DNA of 64,000 nt. Source: Owenia fusiformis. Its lineage: Eukaryota > Annelida > Polychaeta > Sabellida > Oweniidae. A program made the position numbers and the translations under genes. Shown here piece after piece: positions 13,401 to 61,944 of this stretch; position 1 is the first letter of the stretch; every line of letters begins with the position of its first letter. Location of the stretch: assembly GCA_903813345.2 (NCBI GenBank), contig CAIIXF020000010.1:13831181-13895180 (forward strand), written 5' to 3'. A model generated the notes under the pieces. That model was given only the letters and a program-made list of their open reading frames with translations. It made no database searches and was not told the DNA's origin.

Positions 13401-16375
13401 GTTGTTTCAGATTGAAGGTGCCCTAGATAAACATACAATTTTATAGAAGAATATAACTTTATTCAATACACAAATTGCAAACAGAATTTAGAGTTTTAGT
13501 GTATGTTCTTCATAATTCCAGTGTTCAAAGACATGTGGTCGAGGATCACAGGAGAGAGAAGTGACCTGCCCTATACCCAACATGTGTGATGATGAGATGA
13601 AACCACAGACTGTACAGCTATGTGAACTACAGGCCTGCTCAAGATGGGTCAGTGGACAGTGGAGCAAGGTATGTCTACATGCTATAAGCTAGTTTTGCAT
13701 CAAGTCTCTAGACCCTTGTTTTTGTCTCCTTTACCCCCAGTGAGGATTAGCTGTATAATTGGGGGTAGGGGAGGGAGTCACCTGGGTTTGATACAAGACT
13801 GCAATAATACATTACAAGAATACAATAAAGCATAAACATTTACTGCCAATTGATCTGACACCAAATATGGAGCAGTGAAGTCTCTAGACCCTTGTTTTTT
13901 GTCTTCTTCACCACTAGTGAAGATAAGCTGTGTAATGAAGAACAGGGGGACATCACCTGGGTTAGATATACAAGACTACAATAATACAATACAACAAGAA
14001 TACAATAAAGAATAAAGCATTCACATTTACTGCTAATTGATCTGACACCAAATATCCAGTAACATGTACATGTACCATAAAGTCTATAGACCCTCTTTTG
14101 TGTTCTTCACCTCCAGTAAAGGAGGGCCGCTGTGTAAAGGAGGACAGATCTCCTGGGAATTTTCAGAGACATTCTATGTTAACATTATCAGTATATGATG
14201 AACTCTTTATGATATTTCAGTGCACCAGGACATGTGGAGGGGGCAATCAGATCAGAGGGGGCAATCAGATTTTCAGATACATTCAATGTTAACATTATCA
14301 GTATATGATCAACTTTCTATGATATTTCAGTGCACCAGAAAATGTGGAGGGGGCAATCAGATCAGAGGGGGCAATCAGATTTTCAGATACATTCTATGTT
14401 AACATTATCAGTATATGATCAACTCTCTATGATATTTCAGTGCACCAGAACATGTGGAGGGGGCAATCAGATCAGAGGGGGCAATCAGATTTTCAGATAC
14501 ATTCTATGTTAACATTATCAGTATATGATGAACTCTTTATGATATTTCAGTGCACCAGAAAATGTGGAGGGGGCAATCAGATCAGAGGGGGCAATCAGAT
14601 TTTCAGATACATTCTATGTTTTACATTATCAGTATATGATCAACTCTCTATGATATTTCAGTGCACCAGAAAATGTGGAGGGGGCAATCAGATCAGAGGG
14701 GGCAATCAGATTTCAGATACATTCTATGTTAACATTATCAGAAAATGATCAACTTTCTATGATATTTTCAGTGTACCAGAACATGTGGAGGGGGCAATCA
14801 GATCCGCCATGTACAATGCGTAGACAACAGCAACAATACTCCAACTACAGGCTGTGATCCACAGCACCAACCTAAAACATCAGCCAGATGTAACACAGCT
14901 GCTTGTACACATCATAAATCAGGTAAAAAATATTATTTTTTATCACAATGCCAAATTAATTTTGTTCCACTTGTACATGTACTTACCCTACTATCACACC
15001 AAACTAGTTCTCACTACGTTCTAAGAAAACGGGCTTCAACTGTGTACGAACGGACTGGACCTACTAAGAACCGTTTGGGATCCATTTACAAACTTCATCG
15101 AACGTACTCGAACGGGTAGGTCCTCTAGAACTTAGACAATGCTCAAAATGTTCTCGTGGCCGTCACGTTCTACAATTAGAACGAGTGACAACGTACTAAC
15201 GACGAGCTGGACGTACTACGAACGGAACCGTCGTACTTCAATCCTACTAGGGACATTTTAACAACGAGTTGAACCGTCTGAGGACGTGTTGAGAACGAGG
15301 TAGAACTAATTGCAAACGGGTTTAAACTGAATAAGAACGTATTTAACACTGCTTATTAACGAGTTAGCAAAAATATAGCTTTCACACCAAACAAGTTGCC
15401 ACTGCGTTCTTCAAAACTGGGTTTAAACTGTGTGCGAACGGAATGAACGTAGCTGCAACTTTCTAAGGTCTATATACGAACTTTATGAACGTTCTCAGAC
15501 GGGAATGTGATTTTAGAATTTTGAATCGATTCGAAATTCGATGGCGACCATACCGTTCTGTAATCAGGTCATGTTGACCTTCTAGACTAAGGGACGCGTT
15601 CTACGACGTTGCACACCGACGTGGTGCGACCTGAACGAACTGCAAACGAGATGGACGTATTGGAGACTGTTTAAGAACGAAGAAGCTAATTATTTCAGAC
15701 ATATTTCCCGACCACAGCCAGATTGAGCCCGTTTTACGACGTTTTCATAGGACTGGCAAGAACGGGTAAGAACTAGTTTGGTGTGATAGGGGGGTTATGT
15801 AAAAAGAATTAATTTAAGTTTGGCTTACTTAACTTTTTAAACTCGTGATTTAATTATCCTTTTTTAGTTCAATGCAGGTCATAACATTTTAATTGTACTG
15901 TTTGAGCATTTGTTTATTTTTTATGTGTACAAATACACTGAAACCCATAAAAGCGGACTACCTCTAGAAGTGGAACACCTCTGTTTGTGGAACACTTTTC
16001 AGAGTCCTAAGACCAACTGACATAATGTTAAATAAACCTCTATAAGTGGAACACATTCCAAGTTGAAAACACTTTTTAAAGGTACCAAAGGTGTTCCACT
16101 TAGATAGGTTTTACTCTACTCTCATCATGGGTGTGCTTAAAATGATGCTTAATGGACAAGTGCATGTATGTATAACTATGCATTCTTTTATTCCAGCTCA
16201 CCTCAACACAGGCAAATTCCAGTGTAGAAGGAATACAATGAGCAATCACATATGTGGTGCCTTAAAACGATTTGGACAATGTCAACAAAGATATGTACAA
16301 CTAAAATGTTGTCGGACTTGTAATAGCCACAGATACCATAGAACTAAGTCTAGGCTTAGAACTAGGACGACGTGA
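1490..16375 (+). CDS. ADAMTS: ADAMTS-family secreted metalloprotease, ADAMTS7/12-like, 5' part missing
   Basis: Twenty-one exons join in one frame: 1490-1573, 4788-4912, 5958-6107, 6490-6636, 6853-6997, 7327-7419, 7543-7688, 8026-8089, 8402-8504, 8861-8988, 9292-9412, 9620-9861, 10141-10279, 10495-10621, 10846-11065, 11565-11720, 12055-12717, 12952-13122, 13522-13668, 14772-14922 and 16197-16375 (stop TGA 16373-16375). All boundaries are AG/GT and phases agree. Domain order: catalytic metalloprotease (enters mid-domain at [17 protein letters not shown]), disintegrin-like, central TSP1 repeat ([17 protein letters not shown]), Cys-rich, spacer, four TSP1 repeats, Thr/Ser-rich linker, three TSP1 repeats, six-Cys PLAC domain. 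The family cleaves extracellular matrix proteins outside the cell. [17 protein letters not shown] and HQCQLQYGP most resemble ADAMTS7/12, which also have eight TSP1 repeats, a mucin-like module and PLAC; this assignment rests on recalled family features, not alignment. Signal peptide, prodomain and first catalytic exons lie before the window. Confidence 0.93.
2114..2265. repeat. Dispersed short repeat (CAGAATGGTGAAAAACTGCA family), copy 1
   Basis: A G-rich left end leads into a core shared almost word for word with 28014-28168 and, more diverged, with 36740-36912: CAGAATGGTGAAAAACTGCA followed by TGATTTTGAAAGAA. The right end is also G/C-rich. The better-preserved copy at 28014 has 12-bp terminal inverted repeats, so this is probably a miniature DNA transposon. 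It lies in an ADAMTS intron. Confidence 0.7.
2520..2685. repeat. TA-flanked miniature element with AGTRAAACCT termini, copy 1
   Basis: Left end CAGTGAAACCT and right end AGGTTTCACTA are inverted copies with TA outside, which is the Tc1/mariner target signature. The interior (GGAACACCTCTGT, ACCAACTAACTTAATGTTAAA, TTGTTCCACTTAGATAGG) matches the copies at 15936 and 54321. No coding capacity. Confidence 0.7.
3060..3400. repeat. Degenerate ATTTTGTCACAnnCAATA repeat, ADAMTS intron
   Basis: The motif ATATTTTGTCAC followed by a TACAATAG-like tail recurs irregularly near 3067, 3115, 3185, 3250, 3301 and 3345, spaced about 45-70 bp. It is an old, decayed tandem array with no coding signal. Confidence 0.45.
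6091..6507 (+). other. ADAMTS zinc-binding active site, split by an intron
   Basis: The metzincin motif HELGHNFGMKHD (pattern HExxHxxGxxHD) is complete, with all three zinc-ligand histidines and the catalytic glutamate. It is divided by the intron at 6108-6489, which falls inside the Asn codon. A Met-turn (HVMAP) follows about 15 residues downstream in the exon 6490-6636. The protease is therefore predicted to be catalytically competent. Confidence 0.93.
12178..12690 (+). other. Thr/Ser-rich mucin-like linker between TSP1 repeats of the ADAMTS
   Basis: Inside exon 12055-12717, after the TSP1 repeat ending CNTQLC, about 170 residues are rich in Thr, Ser, Pro, Lys and Asn. They start with an ACA-rich run of nine threonines after a proline. 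No cysteines are seen until the next TSP1 repeat ([16 protein letters not shown]). This composition suits dense O-glycosylation and parallels the mucin module of ADAMTS7 and ADAMTS12. The ACA run is also a trinucleotide microsatellite and may vary in length. Confidence 0.75.
13700..14135. repeat. About 180-bp tandem repeat, three decaying copies
   Basis: Three successive blocks begin TCTCTAGACCCTTGTTTTTG (near 13708 and 13879, and as TCTATAGACCCTCTTTTG near 14080). Each continues through a C/T-rich stretch with a CCAGTGAGG-like sequence; the first two also share ACAAGAATACAATAAAG and AATTGATCTGACACCAAATAT. They lie directly upstream of the 110-bp array in the same ADAMTS intron. Confidence 0.75.
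14160..14771 (+). repeat. 110-bp tandem array duplicating a splice acceptor and TSP1 exon start
   Basis: Five near-identical units carry TATGATATTTCAG followed by the start of the TSP1 exon (TGCACCAGAACATGTGGAGG). Exon-like starts fall at 14221, 14331, 14441, 14551 and 14662, with the genuine exon at 14772, so spacing is 110-111 bp. Each false exon copies about 30 bp of the real one, then an internal duplication (GAGGGGGCAATCAGAT), and reaches an in-frame TAA (reading IQC-stop or ILC-stop). No good donor is seen inside a unit. The array looks like a recent tandem duplication that created decoy acceptors. Confidence 0.9.
14986..15794. mobile_element. 809-bp double-unit inverted-repeat element, TTA-flanked, in the last ADAMTS intron
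   Basis: Left end CTATCACACCAAACTAGTTC is the exact inverse of the right end GAACTAGTTTGGTGTGATAG. TTA lies just outside both ends (14983-14985 and 15795-15797). Internally it is two related units of about 400 bp, with a second CACACCAAACAAGTTGCC start at about 15383. The sequence is full of short AACG/CGTT words (GAACGG, AACGAG). A single-unit relative sits inverted at 44303-44715. There is no ORF of note. A 3-bp TTA duplication would suit PIF/Harbinger, which is inference. Confidence 0.75.
15936..16116. repeat. TA-flanked AGTRAAACCT miniature element, copy 2
   Basis: CACTGAAACCC at the left and AGGTTTTACTC at the right, with TA on both sides. The interior shares GTGGAACACCTCTGTTTGTG, ACCAACTGACATAATGTTAAA and TGTTCCACTTAGATAGG with the 2520 copy. 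It lies in the last ADAMTS intron. Confidence 0.7.
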
Positions 16376-18717: not shown

Positions 18718-21700
18718 AAGTAGTAGATTGGTTAACTACATTTGGACTTCATTGTATGATGCAAATGTCCCATTTGGCATAGAAGTACCTTAGGGCAATA
18801 GAAATAAATTTATCCAAAGACACAAGCTAGATGGCGCTTTATATTGAAAATATATGCATTTTTCAAAATGGCCGCCAAAAATACACCAGAGACAATATCT
18901 TTGCTTCTGTGCATGCTACAATTATAAGATTGGTGTCAAAAAACAGTGATGTAGTTGTAAAATATATTTTATTAGATGTTGAGTCTTGACAATTAAGAAC
19001 TTCCACTTTATATTCAAGACATACGCGTTTTTCAAAATGGCTGCCAGAAATATAACAAAGAAGATATCTTACCTTACGAATACTTACAAATTAAGATATC
19101 TTATCTAACAAATGTCCCCTTTGGCATGGAAATACCTTAGGGCAACAGAAACAAATTTATCCAAAGACACAAGCTAGATGGCGCTTTTTATTGGAAATAT
19201 ATACATTTTTCAAAATGGCCGCCAAAAATACATCAGAGACAATAGTTTTGCATCTGTGCATGCTACAGTTATAAGATTGGTGTCAAAAATACATTAATGT
19301 AGTTGTAGAATCTATTTAATTAGGTTTTGAGTCTTGTAAATTCAGCACTTGCACTTTATATTCAAAATAAATGCATTTTTCAAAATGGCTGCCAGAAATA
19401 TAACAAAGATGATATCTTCGCTTCTAAGCATGCTACAATGATAAGAGTGGTGTCAAAGTATACATTAATTGGGTTGTTGTAGAATCCATTTAAATAAGTT
19501 TGGAGTCTTTCATAATAAGAATTTTTACTTTATTGAAATTATGTGTTTCTAAAAATGGCCACCAGAAATATAACAATCATGATATCTTCACATCAGTGCA
19601 TGCTACACTGATACGATTGGTGTCAACATTTTAAATTTATGGGATAGGAGAATCAATTTCATTAAGTATTGTGAAATAATAGTTTTCACTTTATATTGGA
19701 AATATACGCAGCTGAAAATATAACAAAGATTATATCTTTGCTAACAAAGATTGTACTTTTGCTAACAAAGATTGTATCGTTGCTAACAAAAATTGTATCT
19801 TGGCTAAAAGTTTCTTTGCTTCTGGACATAATATTTCATAAAACTTGCTTCAAAATCTTCATTTGTAGAAATGTAAAACCTATTTAATTACTTAGATTCG
19901 AGTAGGTAGTTACCATTTTTCCCACCAGGTGGCTAATTCGGGTGAAATAACATTGCAGGGTATTACAAAGTTCCCTTAAACTTGAATATTCTTAATTTTT
20001 AGTGGTTCACATTTCATATTACTATTTTGTATCTGATAGTTGTACAAATTAAAATATCTCCAGTAAAAGAAAATATTATCAGCCCAGCACAAGGAAAGAT
20101 ATTTCACTTTTTGTGTTTTACAACGTGGGAACTATGGGGAACTTCCCTGACCTAAATGTCACATTTTCGAAGAAAATTTGATTTTAAAGTTGATGGACTC
20201 TTTTAAAACCACATTTCTAGATGCAATTTTTCATGAAGATCCCAAATTCGACAAAAGTTAGACTGAATATGAATTTTTGATGACAAAATTAAAGATTGTT
20301 TTCAAACTACTGAGTTTTAAATAATTCATTTTGAAAAATGCCTACATGTATGTATACACATACAGCACTGAATATTGTCACATTGAGAAAAATATTCTTA
20401 TTTTTTTTCATTTGAACATTTAGGAGATTAAGATTTTAAACCGCATTAATATGTCTTTCACCATGAGTACTTCCTGGCCATAAATACATTGTAAAATATC
20501 TATCCAGCTTTAATTAATTAAAAGGGGATGGCATTTGAAATGCGCTGAAGTTGAAAACCACATCTCCCATGATATCCATTGTTTTCAGCATAGTTTCCGT
20601 CATCGCAAATTGATACATTCAAAACTACTCTTTCAAACTATTCTACTTTTGAAGAAGTTTTAGAACACTTGTTAGATATAATTTTTGTATTATTTTCCAC
20701 AGCCATTGAGAAAACGGCATACATTTTCAATAAAAAGTGAATATGTTAATAGACATACAGTACATGAATTTTTGCTGATTTAAACATTTTGGTGACCATT
20801 TAGTCAATGGTAAAAATCATATTTAGACAATAAAAAATTTGAGATCTAACTTAATATAATGTAACCAGACTTTGACGAGATATCTAGTAAGTAACAGGTA
20901 ATCAACTCCTTCTCTTGGACATTTTGAATTTTCTGAGGCATTAATCATAGAAATAACACCATCTTCAATTTAGTGGAGGCATCAAAAGTTCGATGTCGGA
21001 TAGAAAACTAAATAAATCTAGTTAGGGGGGGAGGGGGTTCAAACCCATTTCAGTTTGCTATCCAAAAAAAATTCAACATTTCAAATTTTTGGCAATTTTG
21101 ACCCAGAATGCCTTGGAATGGTTAAAAATAAAGATTTTACCTGATGCTTTCTTCGTCAAGATCATTCCAAAGGATTCTATTCAATTAGTAGTTGTTAAAA
21201 GCCGCAAATGATGATAAGAATTAACAAAAACTAGATCGTGTTTAGCAATAATTTTTTAATTCTCAAACTGGAAGTCAGCGATCAACTTTCATGGTATTTA
21301 GTTTTTGGGGGAGGGGGGGGGGTCAGAGTCAAAACTAGATTTATTTAGTTTCAATCCGACATTGAACTAGTGATGCCTCCCCTTAATTGAGTATATATGG
21401 CCATAGTTTGAAGGAATCTGAAAATAATTGCAAAATCATATTTAAGACAGACGATGGACTGACAGACTGGCGGACGGAGGGCTTCACTTTATCCCCACTG
21501 AACTGTCTTCATTGGGAAAATAAAGACTGTAAACCTTATCAAATGGACTCTACCACCCATTAATGTATACTTGGACATCAATCTTACTATTGTTTTTAAT
21601 ATAGAGAGGAAGTTCCTTATTTTCAAGACTCAAACCCATACTAAATTGATTCTTCACCCACAAAATGTATATTTAGGCACCAATCGTATCATTATAGCAT

Positions 21701-21905
21701 GCATAAAAGAAAATATATTGTCTCCGTTGTATTTTTGGCGGCCATTTTGAAAAATGTGAATATTTCCAATATAAAGCGCCATCTGGCGTGTGTCTTTGGA
21801 TAAATTTGTTTCTATGGTCCTAAGGTACTCTCATGTCAAAGGAAACGTTTGCATCATAAATTGAAGTCCAGGCCCCCTAAAATGCAGTTAACCCATCTAC
21901 TAAAG
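18718..21905. mobile_element. Foldback-like composite repeat with inverted arms
   Basis: The left block 18718-18900 (TTGGACTTCATTGTATGATG, GCGCTTTATATTGAAAATAT, AAAATGGCCGCCAAAAATAC) reappears inverted at about 21690-21905, ending in a decayed copy of GTAGATTGGTTAACTACAT. Inside are five or six direct copies of a roughly 175-bp unit (AAAATGGCYGCCARAAATAY, GTGCATGCTACA, ATTGGTGTCAAA) and four 21-bp units at about 19722-19808 (AACAAAGATTGTATCTTTGCT type). A nested inverted pair lies at 20973-21021 and 21335-21380 (CTAAATAAATCTAGTT). There is no transposase ORF. The structure recalls foldback elements; class uncertain. Confidence 0.65.
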
Positions 21906-36300: not shown

Positions 36301-39247
36301 ATAGGTCAGGTCGCCTCAATTTTTGAAATCTATGTCGCATGTACAGACACGGTGCGTAGCAACATTGAATGCACATAGCTTTTTCACTTTTACATATCGA
36401 GAAGAATCGTCAACTTTAAAAAGTGGACTTTTCATCAAGGCACTTTTCTAAAAAAAGGAAATAAATTATTTAAAATCTTAATGTCGTCAAGCTCTTGCAA
36501 CTTGCATCAAAGTTACGAAAACTGAGGTCAGATCATTTATAAATCATGAGGTGTCTAGTATTCTTAACTCAATATTCGAAAAATACGAAGTCTGTACTAC
36601 TTGTATGTTGTTATTTCTGTCGTGTTTCATTAGTGATAATATTTTAAATAACTCCAATATATTTGGCAGAGTTTAATGTTTCAGGATAGGTTCTAAAATC
36701 CATATTTGGTTGTTGACTTATCTCCAAGTAGCCCTTTCTACCAAGGAGGGAAGAGCTTTTACCGAGGAGGAGCTTTTGCCAAGGGGAGGAGTTTTTGACA
36801 GCTTTGGCTAAAAAACGTGCGGAAAGTGCTCAGAATGCTGATAAACTGCATGATTTTGAAAAAATCTAGCCAGGGGAGCAGGCTCCCCCAGCTCCCATGG
36901 GTATGGGCCTGCTTTGACTATTCCAAACTATAGAACTGTTTGATGCAAATAAAATATACATACATACAAACACATACATTAATGGCGATCGTGCAGAATA
37001 TCAGATATGGTGTGCCTTTTACAAAACAAATGCATCGAATCTTTTTAAATTTCACGTAAATAATTTTAGAATTCACAAGTTATTGCAAAATCATACCGAG
37101 CCATTCTAATACGTACTGCATCTCCTTTCTTCAAACAGATTTATGAATCTAGGTGAAAAGGTTGCAAAAATGGTAATTCATGATAGATACATGCATTGAG
37201 GCGTCATCGCCGTTCTTTATGAACATGGTACATAAAAATTAACAAGTTTGTGGCTTAACCCACTTGTAACTTCTTCATACCTAGTCCTGGTCCACACTTA
37301 AAAGTGGCAAAAGTGTACAATTTCGTTGGAAAATAATACAAACCTTCTTGTCACGCCTAACCATCGCGTAAGCAGGCGTCACCGTACAGCGTCAAAAAAT
37401 ACAGTAACTTACAGTTTTCTGTACGGTGACGAAAATTAACTGAGTTGAACCAAAAACTATAATGAGGGTTTTAAAAATATTAATTAGATGAAAATAAATA
37501 CGATTTCGGGTGTAATGAAAACAGCATTCTCTTATGAATTGTTTTAACTTTCTAATTATGATAAAAGTTTTTCGAGCACTGCTCGGATTTTCTCTGACTG
37601 GATCGGCCCACATAATCGACTCGAGAGAAAAATGGTGTTTTTTTCACTTTTCGTTTGGTTATTATTTTCCCTGTCGTCGGAGAGTATGGATTATTTTTAT
37701 GAGAATATGTATTTGTTATCTACACATTTTAGAACAGATGAATATTCGGCAAATAATCATTCAGTGTATTTATTTAAAAAAGATCAGAACTGTACGGTGA
37801 CGCATCAGCTGTACGGTGACGCTTCCTTAGATTTTTATGAAGTGCTCTAAGCTTACTGTTCGAACAAGAGGTAAAGAAGCGTCAGATCTACATGTACATT
37901 ATCACTGGTAAGTATCAAGCGAAGGTTACAGCCGTCACCTTCGCATTTAAGATGGCGGACAGGAAGTATTAATTTCGATATTTTTAGTTTTCATGGAATT
38001 AACTATTTGAAAGTTGACTTAATGCTTTGGTATCATTTGAACTAAACCAGGCTTTTCTCATATGACTAACAAATATAGCCTACACAGCCATCTTTACCCC
38101 ATGCAAGATATTGCATCTTTCATCCTAAAAAGTCACACGTGCAAGATGAGATTTACTTGTGACATCCCTTGTTTTAAAACATCAATAACATAGCAACAAG
38201 AGAGTTTTTGGTTTCATGATCTTTACCGTATCATACATTTCCAGTAACCTTCCATTAAGCTGTGGAAGATATCGTTGAACTGTAGCGCCCATGCACTATA
38301 TATGAACAAATGATCATACTCCAGAGTTTCCATTTCATACTCTTAGTCTCATTTAGTTCATCAAAGCATAGCGTCACCGTACAGCTGGTGCGTCACCGTA
38401 CAAATTTGATCTTTTTAAAATTAAATAATGAATGGTTGTTTGCTGAATCTTCGCCCGTTCTAAAATGTGTAAGTAACAAATACATATTCTCATAAAAATA
38501 ATCCATACTCTCAGGCGGTAGGGCAAATAATAACCAAACAAAATGTGAAAAACAACCTTTTTTCACTCTGGTCGATTATGTGGGCCGATTCACTCAGAAA
38601 AAATCAGAACGGTGCTCGTAAAACGTTTATCATAATCAGAAAGTTAAAACCATTTCTAAGAGAATGCTGTTTTTATTTCACATGAAATCGTATTAGTTTT
38701 CATCAAATTAATTTTTTTAAACCCTTGTCATAGTTTTTGCTTCAAAGCAGTTAATTTGCGTTACCGTACAGAAAACTGTACTCCGCTATTTTTTGACGCT
38801 GTACGGTGACGCCTGCTTACGCGATGGTAAGGCGTGCTTGTACTAAATATGAAAACCTGAAAATTGCTGATTTATTGTTTCAGTTCCCAGCACGAGGGCT
38901 TTTAAAATCTATGAATGAATTCACTAATTAGGTCAGCAATGTTTTTCAAGCTTCGATAGTTACATTAATACCGTATAAGTCTTGATTTGCAAGTTTCTGA
39001 TCGTAGTAATTTAATAAATTCAAGGTATTTCAAGATCAGAATTAGAATTAGTCCCCCAAAGAAAAAAATGTACCAATATTTTATGTGATGTCATAAACAG
39101 AACTGTTTTACCGAGACCACTGTTTAAAATACAGAAGAAAATACTCACCATTTCAGCGTTGTTATTTTTCGGGTCCAGACCACAAGGATAGGATTTTGAA
39201 GTGCCTTTAACTTTTATAAGGCCCCCGCCTTTTTGGTGACATTTCAT
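33362..39247 (-). CDS. Globin, neuroglobin/globin X-like, with N-terminal extension
   Basis: Six - strand exons join in one frame: 39247-39149, 35793-35756, 35314-35171, 34922-34796, 33918-33814 and 33499-33362 (216 residues, stop TAA). The globin fold is clear: A helix LSVNEKLQLRVSWNAW, B/C FESFVKMFQDKPETQQVF, E helix SSKLLFHVTRVFKYINMV, F helix LRAAGGRHGCSGYNVP, and G/H from HLGIAMRSLMKKEL to DRLWERLYGFIVVQLC. His in FHVTRV fits E7 and His in GGRH fits proximal F8, so haem binding is expected. Introns fall at the classic B12.2 and G7.0 positions, plus one in the E helix as in other neuroglobin-type genes. The first two exons (about 46 residues, including a 38-bp exon) are outside the globin fold and less certain. 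Likely role: intracellular oxygen, NO or redox chemistry. Confidence 0.85.
33617..33784. mobile_element. 168-bp foldback miniature element in globin intron 5
   Basis: TTGTATTCGCGAATGCAACT plus TTCGGCTGTCGGCTTCCGG at the left is matched, inverted and with a few mismatches, by CGGTAGCCGACAGTCGAAAA plus TTGCATTCACGAATACAA at the right. The arms are about 40 bp around a central 90 bp. No coding potential. Confidence 0.7.
34019..34140. repeat. Dispersed repeat, inverted partner at about 36085-36240
   Basis: ATGCACACTTGGCAAGCTAT plus CAAAAACCA here matches, on the opposite strand, TGGTTTTTGATAGATTGCCA plus AGTGTGCAT near 36155-36185. Flanking CAGTTGTAGCAAGAA also matches. Both copies lie in globin introns, in opposite orientation and about 2 kb apart. 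Confidence 0.6.
35463..35513. repeat. 51-bp perfect palindrome with 25-bp arms
   Basis: Left arm 35463-35487 (starts AAATTATGATATAATGGACG) and right arm 35489-35513 are exact reverse complements around a single G. It lies in globin intron 2, between the exons at 35171-35314 and 35756-35793. It may be the remnant of a tiny inverted-repeat element. Confidence 0.85.
36740..36912. repeat. CAGAATGNTGANAAACTGCA family repeat, copy 3
   Basis: A diverged copy: GCTCAGAATGCTGATAAACTGCA followed by TGATTTTGAAAAAATCTAGCC, with G/C-rich ends (CCAAGGGGAGGAG, GGCTCCCCCAGCTCCC) and GTAGCCC/GGGTATGGGCC-like termini. It lies in globin intron 1. Confidence 0.6.
37352..38836. mobile_element. 1485-bp DNA transposon (CACGCCTAACCATCGCG family), copy 1, non-autonomous
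   Basis: Ends are inverted: CACGCCTAACCATCGCGTAA at the left and TTACGCGATGGTAAGGCGTG at the right. CTTGT is repeated on both flanks (37347-37351 and 38837-38841), a 5-bp target duplication. Imperfect inverted arms of about 480 bp surround a unique centre of about 500 bp (37850-38365). The motif GTACGGTGACGC recurs several times in each arm and may be a transposase-binding repeat. No credible transposase ORF. It sits in globin intron 1. The second copy is at 56985-58470 and a short relative at 50701-51194. Confidence 0.9.
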
Positions 39248-40357: not shown

Positions 40358-43300
40358 ATGGTAAGTTTTTATTTTTATTTAGCATTCAGACATTCTAGAC
40401 TGTACTACAGTGACGTTTATTTATATTTGTATGTTCCACATGGTGAATATTAAAATATGCATTTATAGCGAAATATCCTTTTATAAGAAGTACTGAAAAC
40501 GAAGAACAATAAATGTCTCCCGTACACGACCTTTATAACTTGAAGTACTTTTATTTCAAACACATCATAAGATACATGGCTGTTCGCATGGTGGAACTAC
40601 AAAAAACCATAACTATAATAAAAAGGGAATATAAACTAGCATAAGGCATACATTTTGATAACGGTTACATGATGATTTACATGTAATAATTATAACTAGA
40701 GAACAACAGCGCGAAGGTGTAGCAAATCCCATCGAACAGCCATGGCTGCCATTTTAGCCTTTTAACTAAATTGTCATGATACTATGTCCCGATCTCATGT
40801 ACATTTACGTTGCAAACAGTGAAAATAATGCTAAAACGGCCGCCTGTTGATGCTGTGAGGTATCATCAATTGTTATTTAATCCAAATAAAGTAAACATTA
40901 TTTTGTAGATTTAGACACGGGCTTTCAGGTCATATATGCATTTTAGTCATTAAATGAACAAGAACGCTGGATTATACGTGTTAATAGGGTATCAAATTGA
41001 AATAAAATAACGAAATTAAATATGAACACATTAATGATAAATGACTTTCCGCTATCAGTATTAATGACTATCCGCTACTCAGAATAATTAAAATTGTCTG
41101 AACTATGTGAAGAATTTTTCTATATAACCCCTTGAATGGTCTAATTCACTACCGTCCTCAAAAACCGATCATTTAAAATATTCGATAGTGTAATATCCCT
41201 CAAACTATTCATTTATTTAAGTATAAAATTTCAACAAAACGTTCCACTGCTTTTTTCAGTTATGGCGAAATACTTATGATAAAACATAAATACTGGCCAA
41301 TAATTTCCACCATTTTCAAAATGGCCGCTTGTATTAGCTAAATGTCATTAGAAAGTGTAATAAGCTAGAACTAGGGATTTACATCAAACAACGTCATTGC
41401 ATTACTCATTTCAACTCCTCTTCGACTTATTCAATATCCAATACGATTGTTGACACTAAAATGGTGGCCAATTTAAAACAGCTAACATTCTGAAAATCGG
41501 CTTTACATATAAAACAGAAACAATATTGGACCAGCAGTATTTGAGTTATCGCCTGGACAGACGGACGGGTGGATGGATACGTTCACTATATCCCCCCAAA
41601 CTTCGTTTGATGGGAAAATTAAATAGTAGGGTCTATAGTGGTCGACCTTGCTAATTGTTCTTTTTTGCCTTTTCAACCATGACATTTTTCTTTTTTCAGC
41701 CTCTTTACAACTTATCCCCATCGTCCTACCTCGGTAAGTATCAGTAAATACGCAAAGTAGATTAGCTTGTCTTACTTTTGGAATTTTGATTCTAATATAG
41801 GAATGAAGACGGTGTTGTGAAAATCAAAATAAAGATGAAAAAGCATTTATAAGACACAAATATTATACACATTTAGTGAGAGACGTTCATTATTTCAATG
41901 TAGGGCTGTCAGCCTGGTTCAACCAATACGCACGAGGCAGCACACTACTGGGCAAGCAGGAGCTGAGGGCTGTTCTCTCCAAACACGGGCTCAAACCAAC
42001 CGACAGTGAGCTCCAGTCGATGATCGATGAGGTCTCCGTCGAGAGTAAGTGGAATTTTTTGACTTCATCAATCTGTCTTCAAGCTAGTTCATGATTTTAT
42101 AATTATACCATGTAATCAAGTATTTCCAAAAATTACACGCAAATATGGTTACGTTATTTGGACCTGAAAGAGGGGATATCACTGCTCTATCCGCATGCTT
42201 TGAAAACACTGCCTGATTTCAAGCATTCTACCTTTTAAATATGTTTCGCCTTGCTTATACTCTAGTATGTCATATGCTAATTGAGTTTATTATCAAGATA
42301 TGAAGTTTTCTCAGGGATGATGCATTTGTCCAAAAGATTATAACTGTTACATGATCAGAAATACTCAGTGCTAGATTGGAGTCTCCTAAGATATTTTGTA
42401 CAGCCCTTTGTTGATTGTTGGAACATGAAAAGGATCTGTTAAAATAGAAAGACCTTCTAGTCACCAGAGACATTGTCATATTCGAGCCAAAATTTAACAT
42501 AAACCATTTCTTATGGACACATTTTTTGGACAGGTAATGGCATCGGATTCCAGGCGTTCATTGATTTGGCCAGCGAATACGATGGTTACAGGGACCAAAA
42601 CAAGGAATTCGCAGAGGCATTCAGAATATATGATCGCAGTGGTGAGTGGCTTTGTAACTTCATGAATAATCGAGATAGGTTTTGATATATACTATTAGTG
42701 AGGCATGTCAGTGCTGCTAAAGAGAATCTATATTATCAAATATCCCTAATAGCATAAAATAGAGGGAACTTGAACGAATTGTTACGAAATATGATCACAT
42801 GCTACAATCTACATATTGTGGATATCTAACAACCAGTGTTTTAGTAATTCACATCAGTTTAGTTCAGATACCACTATTAAAAGTAAGTTTCACTACATAC
42901 AAGAATAACTTTTAATGTACGAGGAAATTATGGCCCCTTCTACATATATATAATATGTTCCTGACAGTATAAACTAATATGAAAAAGAGCTGTAATCATA
43001 ATACTAAAAGGTACACAAATGGTAAAAAAATTACACGCAAATATGGTTAAGTTATTTGGACCTGAAAGAGTACACCGATGATGAGGTGGACCTTATTGAC
43101 TGAGATCTGGATATAATTGATATCCACTTCTAGGTTCCGGTGAAATTTCCAAAGAAGACCTTGAATACTGTCTGAACAAGATGGGCAACAAGGGGGCGTC
43201 GGTGGACGCCATCATTGCAGAAGCTGACAGAAATAAGGATGGAAAGATCCAATATGACGGTTGGTTAAATTAACTTTATTTTGAAATAGTGACATTTGAA

Positions 43301-45270: not shown

Positions 45271-48200
45271 ATGGTAAGTCTTTATTTGCATTTATGAATG
45301 TAGTTTCGACTTTATTTAAATTAAAAAAAAGTTCAACTAAAAGCAAAAAGCAAACATATTTTGGAGCTCAAAATTTATATTTGATTTTGATTATATATCT
45401 TTTCTGCTCACTAATACCACATTTATTCCGGGATCCATCAATAAGAAAATTGCAATTAGTTAAAAATTTAAAAAAATTCAAAATGTCCCAATTACTGTTT
45501 TTGTGTGACCTACATATAAATGGTTAATTTGAAGATGGATGGATAAGGGACATAACTCAAGGACTATGTTTTTAAAATGATTATTCACTGCATGCCATGC
45601 CAACGCATTTGACAAAGTGTACGTTTTTCGACCATCCGGATTTTAGTTTTGTATAAATTTATTTTCTGCTTGAAAGAAAAATGTCAAGATGGTTAACTTT
45701 GAATAATGACGTTACGTTACATTCTTATACAAATACTAATAAATAGTTATACAGGGTCATGAAATTGCTGACATTTATTCAGCAGTTGTTCCATCTGGTA
45801 GATTCTCTATTCATTTGTAATATGTATTAGACACATATATAATGTTGTATTTGAAGTAATATATAAATTAATATTTTTCTTTGGAAACGTCCACAAAAAT
45901 TAACTGTGTCGTAGGGCATACGTGTTTTTCTTATGGAACTATAAGAACGCTAAATAGGAACAGGAAAACCCCAAACGCCCTATTCTGGTGACTTTGAAAC
46001 TGCGTGTGTATGTGTATATTTCTAGATTATTCCTAGTATACAATCGGTATATTCATTTGTTAGAATTTCAATGCTCGATCTCCATTGAACAAAATGTGCA
46101 ATTTTACTCAAATATGATTGATTTGCTTCCTAGGCCTACTTATGTCTCTGTATTTAAAAAATACCGATGTTCTTTCGTGCTACGCTTCTTTAATCTGTGA
46201 AAAATGCTTCTTTTTTCAGCCTCTCTTCAACTTATCCCCATCGTCCTACCTTGGTGAGTATCAATACGTAACGTATACTACTGGATTAGCATCTTGTCTT
46301 TCAGATTCTTGATTTTATTTCTGGAATATATATAAAATAAAGAAAGAAAAAGGCAAACATGCAAAGTGTGAGTAGGGTCACCCTGTGAATACTAAAAGGA
46401 TTCGTCCTAAAATCAACAGGCGAAAGTAGAGAAGTAACCATGAATTTTACAATTATACTTTCACGTACCATGTATGGTTTTATGAATTAGTTTATGAATT
46501 TTAACGGTCAACTTTCAACGATTTAAAAAAAATAAGACTGCATTCAGCCAATCGCCAACGATATTACTGCTCAACAAAATAAATTAAGTGAGTGTTTTGG
46601 AAGACATCAAAACATCCAATTTGTTAATGTGAACATTATTCCAACAGGGCTGTCGTCCTGGTTCAACCAATACGCACGAGGCAGCACATTACTGGGCAAG
46701 CAGGAGCTGAGGGCTGTTCTCTCCAAACACGGGCTCAAACCAACCGACAGTGAGCTCCAGTCGATGATCGATGAGGTCTCCGTCGAGAGTAAGTGCTGGT
46801 TTTGGACTTTATTCTGATTTAAAACTGGAATATAGTTTTATGATTATTTCATCAGGAATAACTTTTTAAACCAAATTCACAAATCCTGCTGATGCATTGA
46901 CACCTAGCAAGATATCATTGCAGCTCCAAAAATCAGAATAGAAACATAAAAAGAATCCATTAAAACAAAATAACCTTGGATCAGAAAACATCTGTATTTA
47001 TCAAAAATTAAAGCATGCACACATCAACTATTCTGTAACGGATATTATTTTTGATAGGTAATGGCATCGGTTTTCAGGCCTTCATTGATCTGACCAGTGA
47101 ATTTATGGATTACAGGGACCAGGAGAAAGAATTGGCAGAAGCATTCAGAATATATGATCGCAGTGGTGAGTCATTCTGATTTATCAGAGTCCCTCGATCT
47201 TTACCTAACGCTTTTGAGAACTATTCCAAAAGGATAGTAAAGGCTGTGGATCCCACAATGGTGGTGAGTGGTTTCGTAACTTCATATGTACCTGTAATCC
47301 ATTTGGAACAGTACAGGGTGGGCCAAAAAATTTTGCAACCTTTTTAGAAGGCAAAAAAAGTATTATAACATTATGGTATTGACATGAAATTTTTTTTACA
47401 GAAACTTAAGGATAGGCATATTTTACAATTTAAATGCTTAAGCTAATACTGACATCAAATTTTTTTGTCAGATGTTTGAATATTAATGGTAAATTGTTCA
47501 TGTGTCCGAGATTTACCGATTTTCCTAGAAAATGTGATTTTCTATCATTTTATGTGATCATCGATAGAACATTTGTTATGTTCACTAAATCTGCTGCAAT
47601 CTTTGTTAAATGGTGTATTGAGCGGCTATTCATCAGGACTAATGAATCAAGGGGTATTTTGCTCCAGATATTCCATAGTGACTTTTGGCCTATGGTCAGG
47701 AGCGCTATCCTGCTGGAATATGTAATCACTTGGGGCTGAAAGAGCCCCCATTCTTGAAAGATGTCCCTTTAGAAGAAGATTAATCCTGAGTCGAATGGCC
47801 ACCCAATACACCAGATGCCAACCCCTGGGACTATCACACATGGGGGCACCTGGAGCAATGTATTGTAGTTAATGGTTATACCCCACAAATTATTGATCAA
47901 CTATAAGAAGTTCTGCAGGATAAGTGGAGACGACTACCACAAGAACTGCTGGATCTCGCCATTGACCAGTTCAGTTCTCGTCTCCGTGTGATTGTTAAGG
48001 TGAAAGGCGGATGCATAGAACATTTGTTTAATAAATAATTAATACAGTGTAACAATATTACCATAGTGACTAGATCCTGATATAAACCTGTACTAGACAT
48101 TGGTTAAACAGTTATCAAAGATTGTAGCAGATTTAGTAAACATAATGAATGTGTTATTGTTGATCACATAAAATCATAGAAAGTCCGATTTTCTCGGAAA

Positions 48201-49085
48201 ATGGTAAATCTCGGACAAATGAACAATTTACCATTAATATTCAAACATCTGACAAAAAAATTTGATGTCAGTATTAGCTTAAGTATTTAAATGGTAAAAT
48301 ATGCCTATCCTTAAGTTTCTGTAAAAAAAAATTCATGTCAATACCATAATGTTATAATACTTTTTTTGCCTTCTTAAAAGGTTGCAAAATTTTTTGGCCC
48401 ACCCTGTATATATTGCAATAGCTTGATCATGTTTTGGAGGGCCCTAAAACTGAAACTGTTTCATCTATGGTAGAGCAGAGCGAATTTGGTGTCATTGTAA
48501 TCATGGGCATTCAATCTATTGAAAGCCGACTGTTGTAATATACTTTCTGCTTCTAGGTTCCGGTGAAATTTCCAAAGAAGACCTTGAATACTGCCTGAAC
48601 AAGATGGGCAACAAGAGCGCGTCAGTGGACTCTATCATTGCAGAGGCTGACAAAAATAATGATGGCAAGATCCAATATGACGGTGGGTTAAACTACATTT
48701 GAAATAAAGTAACCCCCCCCCCCCATCCGACCACCACTGAGACCAGCCAATATTGTTCGAATTAGCAGGTGTTCACATTTCAATTTTTTAAATATGTAAG
48801 TCAATGGAAAACAAATTCGAACCGAGAAAACCGAGAGATGTTCGGACTAGAGAGGTGTTCGGATATACAGCTTCCACTTTAGTGCCATTTGAACTTTCTA
48901 AAGTTTGTTTAGTTAGTAAAGTAACATCGAAAAACATCATATGGTGGAGCTGCCGGGTTTTTGAATAACGAGCGGTTTTTTAATATACGATTTAATACAA
49001 TAAAATAATTTACTGTTTTATTAACCACTAATCAACAAGTTATTCTTTCCTTTCAGAGTTCGTTGATTTGATGAAAGGTCTGTAA
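45271..49085 (+). CDS. Calmodulin-like EF-hand protein, paralogue B
   Basis: Six exons mirror gene A: 45271-45273 (ATG only), 46220-46253, 46648-46788, 47058-47165, 48557-48682 and 49057-49085, giving 146 residues. Intron phases are identical. EF1 and EF2 are degenerate as in A, EF3 reads DRSGSGEISKED and EF4 DKNNDGKIQYDE, so calcium binding should be confined to the C-terminal half. The tail is shorter (VDLMKGL against VELMKRRL). Exon 3 differs from gene A at only three of 141 bases, while exon 4 differs at roughly 17 of 108. Intron 4 is enlarged by a mariner-type insertion (47314-48406). Upstream and downstream flanks resemble those of A, so the two may share regulation. Confidence 0.92.
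47650..47725 (-). pseudogene. Mariner-type transposase fragment with QQD motif, inverted
   Basis: The - strand reads YIFQQDSAPDHRPKVTMEYL. The (F)QQDxAPxH motif carries the second catalytic Asp in mariner-type transposases. It points opposite to the C-terminal fragment at 47795-48038. Confidence 0.7.
47795..48038 (+). pseudogene. Mariner-type transposase C-terminal remnant
   Basis: The frame reading EWPPNTPDANPWDYHTWGHL continues through YTPQIIDQL to an in-frame TAA, then resumes with EVLQDKWRRLPQELLDLAI. PD(A)NPxDYxxWG is the third catalytic Asp motif of Tc1/mariner transposases. It is disrupted and not joined to an N-terminal half. Confidence 0.75.
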
Positions 49086-50270
49086 ACCACGTGATCACTG
49101 CATGTCGACCCAATACATAATTGATATGGACATTTTGTTTTATGTACCCCTCTTGAGACATCTTGATTCCCAAGATTTTAGTTGCGAATCATGAACAATT
49201 TATTGAGTCACGTGCTTCAATTATTTTCACACATTGCAAAAGATTTTACACAATATAATTTTGGAAACGTTTCTGCAAGGGTTAACTTGGTCAACACTTA
49301 CCATTTGACATTCATACATAATGAGACATTTGACCTGCATAAGCGCCTGAGTTGTTATTCCCTTCTACTATTTATAGATTTTCACTTCAATTCATAGTTG
49401 TAATCAGTTTCACTTGAGTGAGTGCTTGGTTGATTATTTCATGCATCCACATTATTCAAAATACTGTGATTGACTGGAATTTGACACGCCTTACCTAGCT
49501 ATGTGTGAATGTCCTACTAGTGGCCATGCAGGACCTTGCCACGTGACTCGACATCACCATCAGTTTGGATAATTCATTTCAAGTACGATTGACATCTTAC
49601 ATAAATGGGCATAAATGTAATCTTGCTGAAAATCTGTTGTTATACTATTGAGAAATATACATTTACACGAGATTTATGCGTCCACCTTATATTAATTATT
49701 TCTCTAGTTGAAAGCCCATGGTTATACGTAAAGGATTTGATACACCGTTGATCTATCTACCATTCATAGATGTCACCCGATGTCCATGCTTACAGAAACT
49801 GAATTTTACATATTTTTTCAAACTCTGTTTTGAGGCTACCTATGAATAACACCGATCGGTGGTCGTTGAGGTCGGTCTTTTCCGTAAACCCTTAACTCGT
49901 CCCACACAATGGTCAGAACAAATGATACAATATCGTGACCACAGTTCCTACTCCTAGGCTGTTTGAAATAGTCATAGGAGACAAATTACTGAAAATTTCC
50001 TATGGAAATAGTGTTAAAAAGAAATACAGTATATCAGTCATAAGCTCAATTTAGATAAAGAGACTCTGATAAAACAAAATGGTTCCACTGATCCACACAC
50101 ATACTAAACTCTTAGCTCGCTGTGGAATAGGTCCCAGGAATAGGTACAGTGTTGTACATGTTACGATGGCGGTTTTGCACATGTGACATATGATTGCGAC
50201 ATGTACGTATGAAAATGGCCAATTGATATCGATTCTAACAGATGTTAATCACACATAATGTCAAAACATC
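49086..50270. other. 3' flank of EF-hand gene B and intergenic DNA
   Basis: The first 550 bp resemble the 3' flank of gene A (CCACGTGA, CATGTCGACCCA, ACATAATTG). The remainder has no recognisable gene. Confidence 0.5.
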
Positions 50271-50466: not shown

Positions 50467-50700
50467 TATTTTGATCACGCTGTAAACAAGATTTGCCATC
50501 TGATGCAATTGACCAGACAGAGCCTGTAGGTGAGCCAGTGCACATCTGGACAATTCTCAAGAAAACGGACTCAATACCCGATGAAATGCATGTAAAAGCT
50601 AATTTCACATTCCGACTAAATCACCGAATATGCTGATATGCTGGGTGTTTACATATTACGTGATCTCGTGAAATCTGCATCACACGTTTGATGATTATAA

Positions 50701-51194
50701 CACGCCTAATAATCGACAACGTACAGTGATAAAATATACGGGTGTACACTTTAGCTGTTTAGAGCAAAAATTGTGATGTAGGTTTTAAAAGTTTTTATGT
50801 AAGGAATATGATGAAATATTTCATTTTTAATTTCATGTGCATGATCTTGGCAAGACTTTTAACTTTTTAATTACGTTACAGATTCTCAAACAGAGCGCGA
50901 TGTTTTTCCAGGTACTTCAATCCATATCCATGTAAGCATTTTCCAACCGGTCAATTATGTCAGTGGAATTGCATCGAAAAAATCCGAGCACTACTCGAGA
51001 ATCTATTAACGTAATTAGAAAGTTAAAAGTCTTACCAAGAGCATGCACATGAAATTAGACATGAAATACTACTTTATATTCCTTAGATAAATGTTTTAAA
51101 AAATACATCACGATTTTCGTTCCAAACATGACAACGTACAGCTAAGTGTACAACCGTATATTTTGTCACTATACGTTGTCGATGATTAGGCGTG
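50701..51194. mobile_element. 494-bp relative of the CACGCCTAA transposon, with 5-bp target duplication
   Basis: The left end CACGCCTAATAATCGACAAC continues GTACAGTGATAAAATATACG. The right end is its inverse with few changes (CGTTGTCGATGATTAGGCGTG). TATAA is repeated on both sides (50696-50700 and 51195-51199). The inner arms (CTCGAGTAGTGCTCGGATTT type, TTCTAATTACG) resemble those of the 1485-bp copies, so it is a short, diverged member of that family. Confidence 0.85.
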
Positions 51195-51445
51195 TATAAG
51201 GGAGTGATTGAATGAGGTGTTTAAGGTATGCAACGTCAAACGCATTTGATAAAAAACAGTTGCATCGTTTTAAGAGAACTAGAGCATGTACGTGTAAATC
51301 AAGGGTGTACGAAAAGACCGATGGCTCCAAGCACCGACTACGTATTTTTGACCCGTATGCGTGGAGATTGATTGGTCGGTGGTAGGTGTGGGCCTGTTTT
51401 ACGTACACCCTGAAATCAAGACACCGATGATTCTTGTTTTTCCAG

Positions 51446-56979: not shown

Positions 56980-56984
56980 ACATA

Positions 56985-58470
56985 CACGCCTAACCATCGC
57001 GTAAGCAGGCGTCACCGTACAGCGTCAAAAAATACAGTAGTACAGTTTTCTGTACGGTGACGAAAATTAACTGAGTTGAAGCAAAAACTATAATGAGGGT
57101 TTTAAAAAGATTAATTAGATGAAAATAAATACGATTTCGGGTGTGATAAAAACGGCATTCTCTTAGGAATGGTTTTAACTTTCTAATTATGATAAAAGTT
57201 TTTCGAGCACTGCTCGGATTTTTTCTGACTGGATCGGCCCACATAATCGACTCGAGAGAAAAATGTTGTTTTTTCACTTTTCGTTTGGTTATTATTTTCC
57301 CTGTCTTCTGAGAGTATGGATTATTTTTATGAGAATATGTATTTGTTATCTACACATTTTAGAACAGATGAATATTCGGCAAAAAATCATTCAGTGTATT
57401 TATTCAAAAAAGATCAGAACTATACGGTGACGCATCAGCTGTACGGTGACGCTTCCTTAGATATTATGCAGTGCTCTAAGCTTACTGTTCGAACAAGAGG
57501 TAAAGAAGCGTCAGATCTACATGTACATTATCACTGGTAAGTATCAAGCGAAGGTTACAGCCGTCACTTTCGCATTTAAGATGGCGGACAGGAAGTATTA
57601 ATTTCGATATTTTTAGTTTTCATGGAATTAACTATTTGAAAGTTGACGTAATGCTTTGGTATCATTTGAACTAAACCAGACTTTTCTCATATGACTAACA
57701 AAGATAGCCTACACAGCCATCTTTACCCCATGCAAGATATTGCATCTTTCATCCTAAAAAGTCACACGAGCAAGATGAGATTTACCTGTGACATCCCTTG
57801 TTTTAAAACATCAATAACATAGCAACAAGAGAGTTTTTGGTTTCATGATCTTTACCGTATCATACATTTCAAGTAACCTTCCATTAAGCGGTGGAAGATA
57901 TCGTTGAACTGTAGCGCCCATGCGCTATATATGAACAAATGATCATACTCCAGAGTTTCCATTTCAAACAATCTCAGTCTCATTTAGTTCATCAAAGCAT
58001 AGCGTCACCGTACAGCTGGTGCGTCACCGTACAAATTTGATCTTTTTTAAATATACATAATGCATGGTTGTTTGCTGAATCTTCGCCCATTCTAAAATGT
58101 GTAGTCAACAAATACATATTCTCATAAAAATAATCAATACTCTCAGACGGCAGGGAAAATAATAACCAAACGAAATGTGAAAAAACAACCTTTTTTCACT
58201 TGGGTCGATTATGTGGGCCGATTCACTCAGCAAAAATCCGAACAGTGCTCGTAAAACGTTTATCATAATCAGTAAGTTAAAACCATTTCTAAGAGAATGC
58301 TGTTTTTATTTCACATGAAATCGTATTAGTTTTCATCAAATTAATTTTTTTTAAACCCTTGTCATAGTTTTTCCTTCAAAGCAGTTAATTTGCGTTACCG
58401 TACAGAAAACTGTACTCCGCTATTTTTTGACGCTGTACGGTGACGCCTCCTTATGCGATGGTAAGGCGTG
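56985..58470. mobile_element. 1486-bp DNA transposon (CACGCCTAACCATCGCG family), copy 2
   Basis: Nearly identical to 37352-38836 across its length, same orientation and ends. ACATA is repeated on both flanks (56980-56984 and 58471-58475). A target duplication different from copy 1 shows independent insertion. Internal GTACGGTGACGC motifs and the long inverted arms are kept. Short ORFs inside do not resemble a transposase. Confidence 0.9.
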
Positions 58471-58475
58471 ACATA

Positions 58476-59995: not shown

Positions 59996-61567
59996 CTATT
60001 CAGCAAGGGGACTTATGGGTTTCCCCCTTCCTTTGAATCCAAGTGTTCCATCTGGTCCCTTTGGTTGCCTTATGACACCGCCCATGTCAGACATACGTCC
60101 TTGAATTTGGCGGCGACCTAACATTGGGCTTGCATTAGGGCTTAAGTCCTTTACTAGGGGGCTAACTTCCTGTGCTGCTTTGAGGCGGCGTGCAACCCAA
60201 GGACTCCCTGGGCTACCTTCTTCCCCTGAGGAATACCCCTTTCTTGTGGGGTCAGGGCTACCTTTGGGACTTTCTTCATCACCTCTCCCACCCGCAAGGG
60301 GAGATTTCTTTGGAACACTTAATCGCCTCCGTTGCATGGTGGGTGAAGTCTTAGGACTTGATTTAGGACTTGACCTAGGTGAGGCATTTGGACTAAGGTA
60401 GCTACCATATCCAGGAGTAGGACTTAGAGAATTCCTGGAAGGGGTTTTCTGTGGTTTGTTTCCCCAGGACTGTGATCGATTTCTTGGACAATCGCCTTTG
60501 CCCCAAGAGTTGCTGCGATTCCTTGATGTCGGACCATCAGCCTCAGAGCCGCTACTATTTGGTGTATCAGCGTCACCGTCCCCAGTTAATTCCTCAACCC
60601 GTGAGTTGCGCTTCTTTTGATTACGTCGTTTCTTTCGCTTTTTATCCTCAACTTCTACATCGCTTCCTTTTTCTCCATCTGATTTAAAATCATTTTTCAT
60701 TTCATTTTCTTTATCTTTACGCTCTTTGTCCTTATTTTTCCTCTGATCGGCTAATAATACAACACGTAGGCCAGATCTCCAATTATCAGTACTATTCATA
60801 GTGTCACATGCCTTTTTAGCGAATTCGTGTTTTTCAAATTCAACAACTGCACATGTGCTAGTCCCGATCTCTGGATGTTTACTGGTATGTTTCTTAACAT
60901 CCTGAGGCACAGTTTTTCCAGGTTTTAGAATACGAATCAATGCTATATCTCCACACTTGGAAAATAGCTGCGATATATTTCCTATTGATGGATTTTCCAT
61001 TGGCAGATTAATGGCAACAACTGTCTTTGATGGGGTTGTTTCATCATAATCAGGAAGCGGATCTTTTCTCTTTACTTTAGTTCCTTCTTCATTCACTAAT
61101 AACTTTTCAGATTGTCTAAGACTGTAAGCCACGACACGATAATCCTTTGTCAATGACTTCATCTTTTTGAACGAGGTTATAAGCTTGAGACTGACATAGC
61201 CTTGCTTGTTACGTTTTACGTGTTTCAACAGGAAAGCGTCTTTCAGAATATTTGCATCTGAAAAATAAAACTCCACTTGGTTGATGACTTTGTCACGGAT
61301 TTCATCATTCGGTGCCACAAATTCACCAAGTGACGGACCTTCTGCATCAGAATTCTCCCCAATACTCAACCCCTCTTCTTCACTTTGGACACCAGAACTA
61401 CATCCTTCTTCCTCCTTTAACTGTTCAACTCTCAGTACGGGCGCGGCTGGTGACTTCATTATTGCTTCAGCCTGTGTTTCATCACTTGAATTCACAACAG
61501 GTGGAATGTCATTTGCTGAAATTCCATCACTCAATTCGCCATTTTGTAAAGCCGTTGATTCACTCAT
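59996..61567 (-). CDS. LARP6: La-related protein 6 (LARP6), RNA-binding
   Basis: Single uninterrupted 523-residue reading frame starting at the ATG at 61565-61567. An acidic N-terminus (1-85) is followed by the La motif (about 86-166: INQVEFYFSDANILKDAFLL, QGYVSLKLITSFKKMKSLT), an RRM-like domain (about 180-275), and a basic KDKERKDKEN/KKRKKRRNQKKR segment (about 278-322). A Ser/Pro-rich tail and a C-terminal LSA/SUZ-C-like motif (499-514, IRQPKGPDGTLGFKGR) complete the LARP6 layout. The family binds mRNA stem-loops (collagen mRNAs in vertebrates) and steers their localisation and translation. The Ser/Pro tail (SPNASPRSSPKSSPKTSP) suggests phospho-regulation. It is head-to-head with DCTN3. 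Confidence 0.95.
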   Translation of the reverse strand: MSESTALQNGELSDGISANDIPPVVNSSDETQAEAIMKSPAAPVLRVEQLKEEEGCSSGVQSEEEGLSIGENSDAEGPSLGEFVAPNDEIRDKVINQVEFYFSDANILKDAFLLKHVKRNKQGYVSLKLITSFKKMKSLTKDYRVVAYSLRQSEKLLVNEEGTKVKRKDPLPDYDETTPSKTVVAINLPMENPSIGNISQLFSKCGDIALIRILKPGKTVPQDVKKHTSKHPEIGTSTCAVVEFEKHEFAKKACDTMNSTDNWRSGLRVVLLADQRKNKDKERKDKENEMKNDFKSDGEKGSDVEVEDKKRKKRRNQKKRNSRVEELTGDGDADTPNSSGSEADGPTSRNRSNSWGKGDCPRNRSQSWGNKPQKTPSRNSLSPTPGYGSYLSPNASPRSSPKSSPKTSPTMQRRRLSVPKKSPLAGGRGDEESPKGSPDPTRKGYSSGEEGSPGSPWVARRLKAAQEVSPLVKDLSPNASPMLGRRQIQGRMSDMGGVIRQPKGPDGTLGFKGRGKPISPLAE

Positions 61568-61944
61568 GTTGGACTAAGTAAGTATCCAGCACTTCTCAAT
61601 TCCAATTAATAGTCTGTAATCAACGATACTCACACGAGAAAGTCACAATATGGTATGATTTGAACCCCAAATTGACCCACACTTTTCGGGCAACGTAACT
61701 GGGGCAAATGGCATTTTTCATGAGTCACCCCATAAAAATTAGTCACTGGGCTAAAATCCAATTAGTGCTTTCCTTATTTTAAGAAAAATAGGGTTATATT
61801 TGCACAATATAACACGTGAATATTTATTTCCGTATCACAAATGAACCATACTTATGAAATTCCCCTTATTGAACTCACAATATGAATTTAAGATGGGAAG
61901 AAATATTTGTTGCTCGATTAGTTTTTCTGCACTCTCAAATCAAC
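61568..61944. promoter_or_regulatory. Shared LARP6/DCTN3 intergenic region, probable bidirectional promoter
   Basis: Only 377 bp separate the start codons of divergent LARP6 (-) and DCTN3 (+). Both 5' UTRs and promoters must fit here unless upstream non-coding exons exist. No TATA box is obvious at a sensible distance. Confidence 0.5.

Follow-up and report, generated by a model that had tools for sequence, protein, structure and literature searches.

According to our in silico analysis of a 64,000-nucleotide stretch of the Owenia fusiformis genome (hereafter the window), three elements, A, B and C (Table 1), very probably form a single extended family of non-autonomous DNA transposons, moved by a transposase encoded elsewhere. 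This reading is based on matched CAC ends, long arms, exact 5-bp duplications at three unrelated sites, a mirrored motif and the lack of any coding sequence found. The family fits a general kind, the non-autonomous TIR DNA transposons, in its sharp-edged inverted ends, its fixed-length duplications and the absence of a detected transposase gene. An initial annotation had proposed a non-autonomous transposon family with two copies. The family itself holds, with three elements in which no coding capacity was found and a 5-bp duplication in 3/3; A and B were both confirmed, while C had been missed.

Table 1. Coordinates of the three elements, their parts and their target duplications (positions in the window)
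Feature	Position	Strand	Remarks
Element A, complete non-autonomous TIR transposon, 1485 bp	37352..38836	+	
Target duplication CTTGT, 5 bp, left of A	37347..37351	.	
Target duplication CTTGT, 5 bp, right of A	38837..38841	.	
A left arm	37352..37832	+	blastn self-alignment; motif copies at element positions 25, 68, 439, 458 (motif scan)
A central region, 526 bp	37834..38359	.	97.3% match to B centre
A right arm, inverted	38360..38836	-	motif copies at element positions 1020, 1039, 1407, 1448
Element B, second copy, 1486 bp	56985..58470	+	K2P 0.034 from A
Target duplication ACATA, 5 bp, left of B	56980..56984	.	
Target duplication ACATA, 5 bp, right of B	58471..58475	.	
Element C, 494 bp, diverged relative, nearly one palindrome	50701..51194	+	
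Target duplication TATAA, 5 bp, left of C	50696..50700	.	
Target duplication TATAA, 5 bp, right of C	51195..51199	.	

Three elements with CAC ends and 5-bp duplications

A and B had been described as nearly identical copies of about 1485 bp, and both their lengths and their coordinates were borne out: the two sequences are identical at 1432 of 1490 alignment columns (about 96%) and differ by 49 substitutions (21 transitions and 28 transversions) and 9 gap columns. The imperfect inverted arms, given previously as about 480 bp, align in A over 483 columns with 85.7% identity (blastn self-alignment), and the differences between left and right arm are common to A and B. Outside B, the 526-bp centre of A gave only short and weak matches in the window (17-29 bp, E 0.027 or worse, at a limit of 1).

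All three elements have the form CAC...GTG, with a CAC start at 6/6 ends. A 15-bp tip, CACGCCTWAYMATCG, is common to A, B and C and occurs without mismatch at all six ends; searching the window with this pattern, itself built from the six element ends, at up to 3 mismatches yielded 7 occurrences against 3.57 expected, which is not significant. The inverted tips of the initial annotation stand as far as the CAC...GTG ends are concerned. The right tip had to be corrected, as it reads CACGCCTTACC and not CACGCCTAACC, and that of B carries two further differences.

The flanks of A, B and C are identical at length 5 only (lengths 2 to 11 were tried), so that the 5-bp duplication is perfect in 3/3 insertions found in the window: CTTGT, ACATA and TATAA. 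The first two had already been claimed as independent duplications, in agreement with their unrelated flanks. Flanking stretches of 300 bp, taken from both sides of every element and compared with the window, each matched only themselves, which indicates that A and B are separate insertions and not parts of a duplicated segment.

Element C was detected by a scan for degenerate CACGCCTA ends (up to 2 mismatches) with identical 5-bp flanks. The scan returned 4 pairs; the tips of A, B and C match at 15/16 positions and those of the fourth pair at 7/16. As a control, 1286 degenerate end pairs were analyzed for identical flanks of other lengths: flanks of 2, 3, 4, 5 and 6 bp were found in 92, 33, 14, 4 and 2 pairs, respectively, and flanks of 7, 8, 9 and 10 bp in none, and 3 of the 4 pairs in the 5-bp class are A, B and C. 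The two halves of C agree with each other at 182 of 226 aligned columns; with the outer arm parts of A and B, each half agrees at 138-169 of 225-246 columns. C is therefore a diverged relative and not a chance look-alike. As a single strand, C folds into nearly one hairpin (-142.1 kcal/mol against a mean of -42.4 for 100 shuffles, z -21.5). The initial annotation had named copies lacking a 5-bp duplication as evidence that would speak against its proposal; the one further copy in the window, C, carries TATAA.

A lone CACGCCTTACC, corresponding to the first 11 bases of the right tip of A, lies 1.2 kb upstream of C (49485-49495), with 0 such matches expected in 100 shuffles. It looked at first like another element end. 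The match to the tip stops at 11 bases, a downstream search found no inverted partner above background (score 22; among 52 control scores, the top ten reach at least 30), and a search for a matching duplication found none.

The window has a G+C content of about 35% and its genes are animal-like. One gene (59996-61573) resembles La-related protein 6, which is also its best solved-structure match, and has a Pfam La domain. Exons of ADAMTS spacer and thrombospondin type lie at about 9.5-15 kb, those of F-box and WD40 type at 24.5-26.4 kb. Other repeats were seen as well. An inverted-repeat element of about 1.1 kb (47312-48408) has ends TACAGGGTGGGCC and outer arms that are 97% complementary, and adjoins TA; by eye, it carries Tc1-type-transposase-like fragments on either strand, as though one portion had been flipped, and two of its frames scanned with Pfam gave no match. 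A 164-bp repeat pair (41888-42051 and 46634-46795; 95.7% identity) carries in both copies the reading-frame stretch ARGSTLLGKQELRAVLSKHGLKPTDSELQSMIDEVSVES, which looks EF-hand-like by eye; when one of the copies was scanned with Pfam, no EF-hand was matched. At 14159-14804, a unit of 110 bp is repeated 5.9 times in tandem (95% matches); it adjoins a thrombospondin-type exon and appears to contain a copy of the start of that exon. Several overlapping inverted repeats (arms of up to 199 nt, 85% complementary) and a 170-bp tandem array (19184-19626) lie within 18743-21870.

A mirrored 14-bp motif in the arms

The initial annotation had also pointed to a motif repeated in each arm. Our scan found the 14-mer CTGTACGGTGACGC in four copies per arm in A and B, at mirrored positions and with at most 1 mismatch. 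In each of these arms, the copy near the tip is reversed, a facing copy lies about 30 bp inward, and a tandem pair spaced 19 bp apart occupies the inner end. Allowing up to 3 mismatches, the whole window contains 18 matches against 1.04 expected, with A and B holding 8 each, C a single one and the last lying outside the elements (60570). The 12-mer GTACGGTGACGC has 11 exact occurrences in the window, all of them within A or B. Among the 16 sites in A and B, two have GTTACCGTA and a single one, in B, has GTCACCGTATAG; all others have GTCACCGTA. The tip site and the partner facing it can still be recognised in C, where 3/4 of the expected sites read GACAACGTA, with the same two base changes, and the fourth is degraded.

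We then compared the terminal 50 bp together with the motif sites to the remainder of the arms. Arm against arm, these regions differ in A at 4/92 columns versus 68/388 elsewhere (Fisher one-sided p 4e-4) and, more weakly, in B at 7/92 versus 61/386 (p 0.027). With motif sites alone, the figures are 3/56 versus 69/424 for A (p 0.018) and 4/56 versus 64/422 for B (p 0.072). Between A and B, the terminal 50 bp plus sites did not differ significantly from the rest, either in the left arms (1/92 versus 17/387, p 0.109) or in the right arms (2/92 versus 23/386, p 0.108); for motif sites alone, p was 0.041 in the right arms (0/56 versus 25/422) and 0.356 in the left arms. The regions were defined after the alignment had been seen, and A and B are not independent, being of common descent. 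We therefore take conservation at ends and sites as supporting, not decisive. The mirrored arrangement and the conservation of the CTGTACGGTGACGC sites, with the shared base changes in C, suggest that a transposase acting in trans binds them. The changed sites of C are weak evidence for co-evolution, because only one copy of this form was seen and its two arms could have become alike by homogenisation.

Coding capacity and proposed mode of movement

The longest stop-to-stop frame in the elements is 119 aa. Pfam analysis of 9 of the 12 ORFs of at least 60 aa in A and B gave no match at the curated cut-off; the best match among those 9, to DUF1453 (E 0.01), fell short of its cut-off. In C, all frames are shorter than 60 aa. 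Beyond the window, a scan of IMG/VR with the 17-base tip returned six exact matches, which we read as chance and not as relatives since none of them continues like the element past 17 bases. The 22-base patterns from A and B gave 0 matches in viral and genome contigs, and the one from C gave 0 matches in viral contigs. A full-text literature search with the element end sequences returned no paper title on such a transposon. Neither a transposase nor an empty site was found.

By analogy with other TIR elements, a DDE/RNase H-fold enzyme is the most likely transposase, and movement would be of the cut-and-paste kind carried out by such a DDE enzyme. We propose that a transposase from elsewhere in the genome would bind the 14-bp sites and the tips, bring both ends of the element together and cut next to CAC. 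Insertion into the target with a 5-bp stagger, followed by host repair, would produce the duplication. A and B probably came from one source whose arms were already about 14% diverged, and C from an older sub-family with altered putative binding sites.

Candidate superfamilies and comparison with known elements

In our judgement, the superfamily may be Transib/RAG-like or another CAC-ended relative, or, with the same tentativeness, something other or undescribed, while a hAT5-like placement is unlikely. The initial annotation had left the superfamily unassigned, and we do the same: many ordinary CAC sites fit the RAG-like consensus as well as these ends do, and the hAT, Ginger and Kolobok end rules fail.

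It is possible, if rather doubtful, that a Transib or RAG1-like transposase moves the family, which would then be a non-autonomous member of Transib/RAGL with an atypical heptamer. CAC at 6/6 ends and the 5-bp duplication in 3/3 elements agree with this. At all six ends, however, 0/4 positions past CAC match the heptamer consensus CACWRTG, in line with the earlier remark that CAC and 5 bp resemble Transib/RAG-like elements while the heptamer does not fit; the vertebrate heptamer is given as CACAGTG (PMC8289069). In protostome RAG-like elements, CAC and 5 bp are described as constant and the ends depart from the vertebrate heptamer beyond CAC (PMC7204232), yet only 10-12 of the 17 positions of their consensus agree here, a level that 37% to 7% of all CAC sites in the window (1517) attain as well. 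At the right end of C, an ACAAAA tract lies 21 bp after the first seven bases, within the Transib spacer range, as symmetric Transib ends are described with spacers of 20-22 bp (PMC8355894). A nonamer of at least 6/9 at a spacer of 20-24 is present at 1/6 ends (spacer 21) compared with 7.4% of random places, and the A-rich tract of A and B sits at a spacer of 33. Targets of Transib, RAG and ProtoRAG are reported to favour GC (PMC8289069), whereas the duplications hold 3 G/C in 15 bases, a figure from three sites only (P of at most 3 at 35% GC = 0.17). Non-autonomous RAGL copies are described from the oyster Pinctada imbricata and several deuterostomes (PMC7204232).

It is doubtful, too, that the family represents an undescribed CAC-ended lineage with 5-bp duplications, which could be either a Transib/RAG-like branch, with the heptamer CACGCCT and mirrored putative 14-bp binding sites replacing the nonamer, or a superfamily of its own.

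Elements of the hAT superfamily often carry several short subterminal repeats to which the transposase binds, and the repeated motifs of A and B resemble these. The 5-bp duplications would likewise suit hAT5, a branch of hAT described with 5-bp duplications and as present in some invertebrates (PMC12730594, PMC9004415). Membership in hAT5 is nevertheless unlikely: the tip YARNG, an end rule for hAT in general and not for hAT5 in particular, matches at 3/5 positions at all six ends, with positions 3 and 5 failing, and arms of about 480 bp far exceed the usual inverted repeats of hAT. Finally, replication errors can generate palindromes, and the window has one more inverted repeat of similar size (47312-48408), though it also resembles a transposon relic; the three unrelated flanks, the exact element boundaries and the three perfect 5-bp duplications make it extremely improbable that a palindromic tandem or segmental duplication, and not a transposon, accounts for the ends and arms.

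As it stands, this is a well-formed small transposon family, which matters mainly for repeat annotation of this animal genome. If it is an undescribed lineage, the two sub-families with matched site changes would record co-evolution of transposase and binding sites. If an autonomous partner turned out to be RAG-like, the ends would extend the range of RAG/Transib signals known so far and illustrate one way in which end-recognition rules drift, and a partner from an unknown superfamily would be of interest to transposon classification.

Among known systems, Galileo is a foldback element of the P superfamily with long inverted arms, non-autonomous copies and 7-bp duplications; it resembles our family in its arms and non-autonomous state and differs in duplication length (5 bp here). 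En/Spm (CACTA), of the CACTA-Mirage-Chapaev-Transib group, has in common with the family a CAC tip and short subterminal motifs in both orientations. The tip here is CACGC and not CACTA, a 3/5 match on which CACTA was rejected, and the duplications are 5 bp as opposed to the usual 3 bp described for EnSpm families (PMC12730594). Ginger2/TDD is similar in that Dictyostelium TDD-4 and TDD-5 are described with 5-bp duplications (PMC2836005), and was rejected with its tip TGTNR matched at 1/5. Some KolobokP families, from molluscs and other animals, are described with 4-5 bp duplications (PMC9587614); their tips are RR..YY, compared with CA..TG in A, B and C, and they were rejected as well. Also rejected were IS3EU (tip TAYGG, 3/5), PlavakaB (tip CATCA, 2/5) and IS481EU (TGT tips, usual duplications of about 4, 15 or 25 bp). 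With hAT5, the family has the 5-bp duplications in common, and departs from usual hAT features in its tip and in its much longer arms. From Transib/RAGL elements it is set apart by its long arms and mirrored 14-bp repeats, by duplications that are not GC-rich, and by the lack of a heptamer match past CAC and of a clear nonamer, and it resembles them in its CAC tips and its 5-bp duplications.
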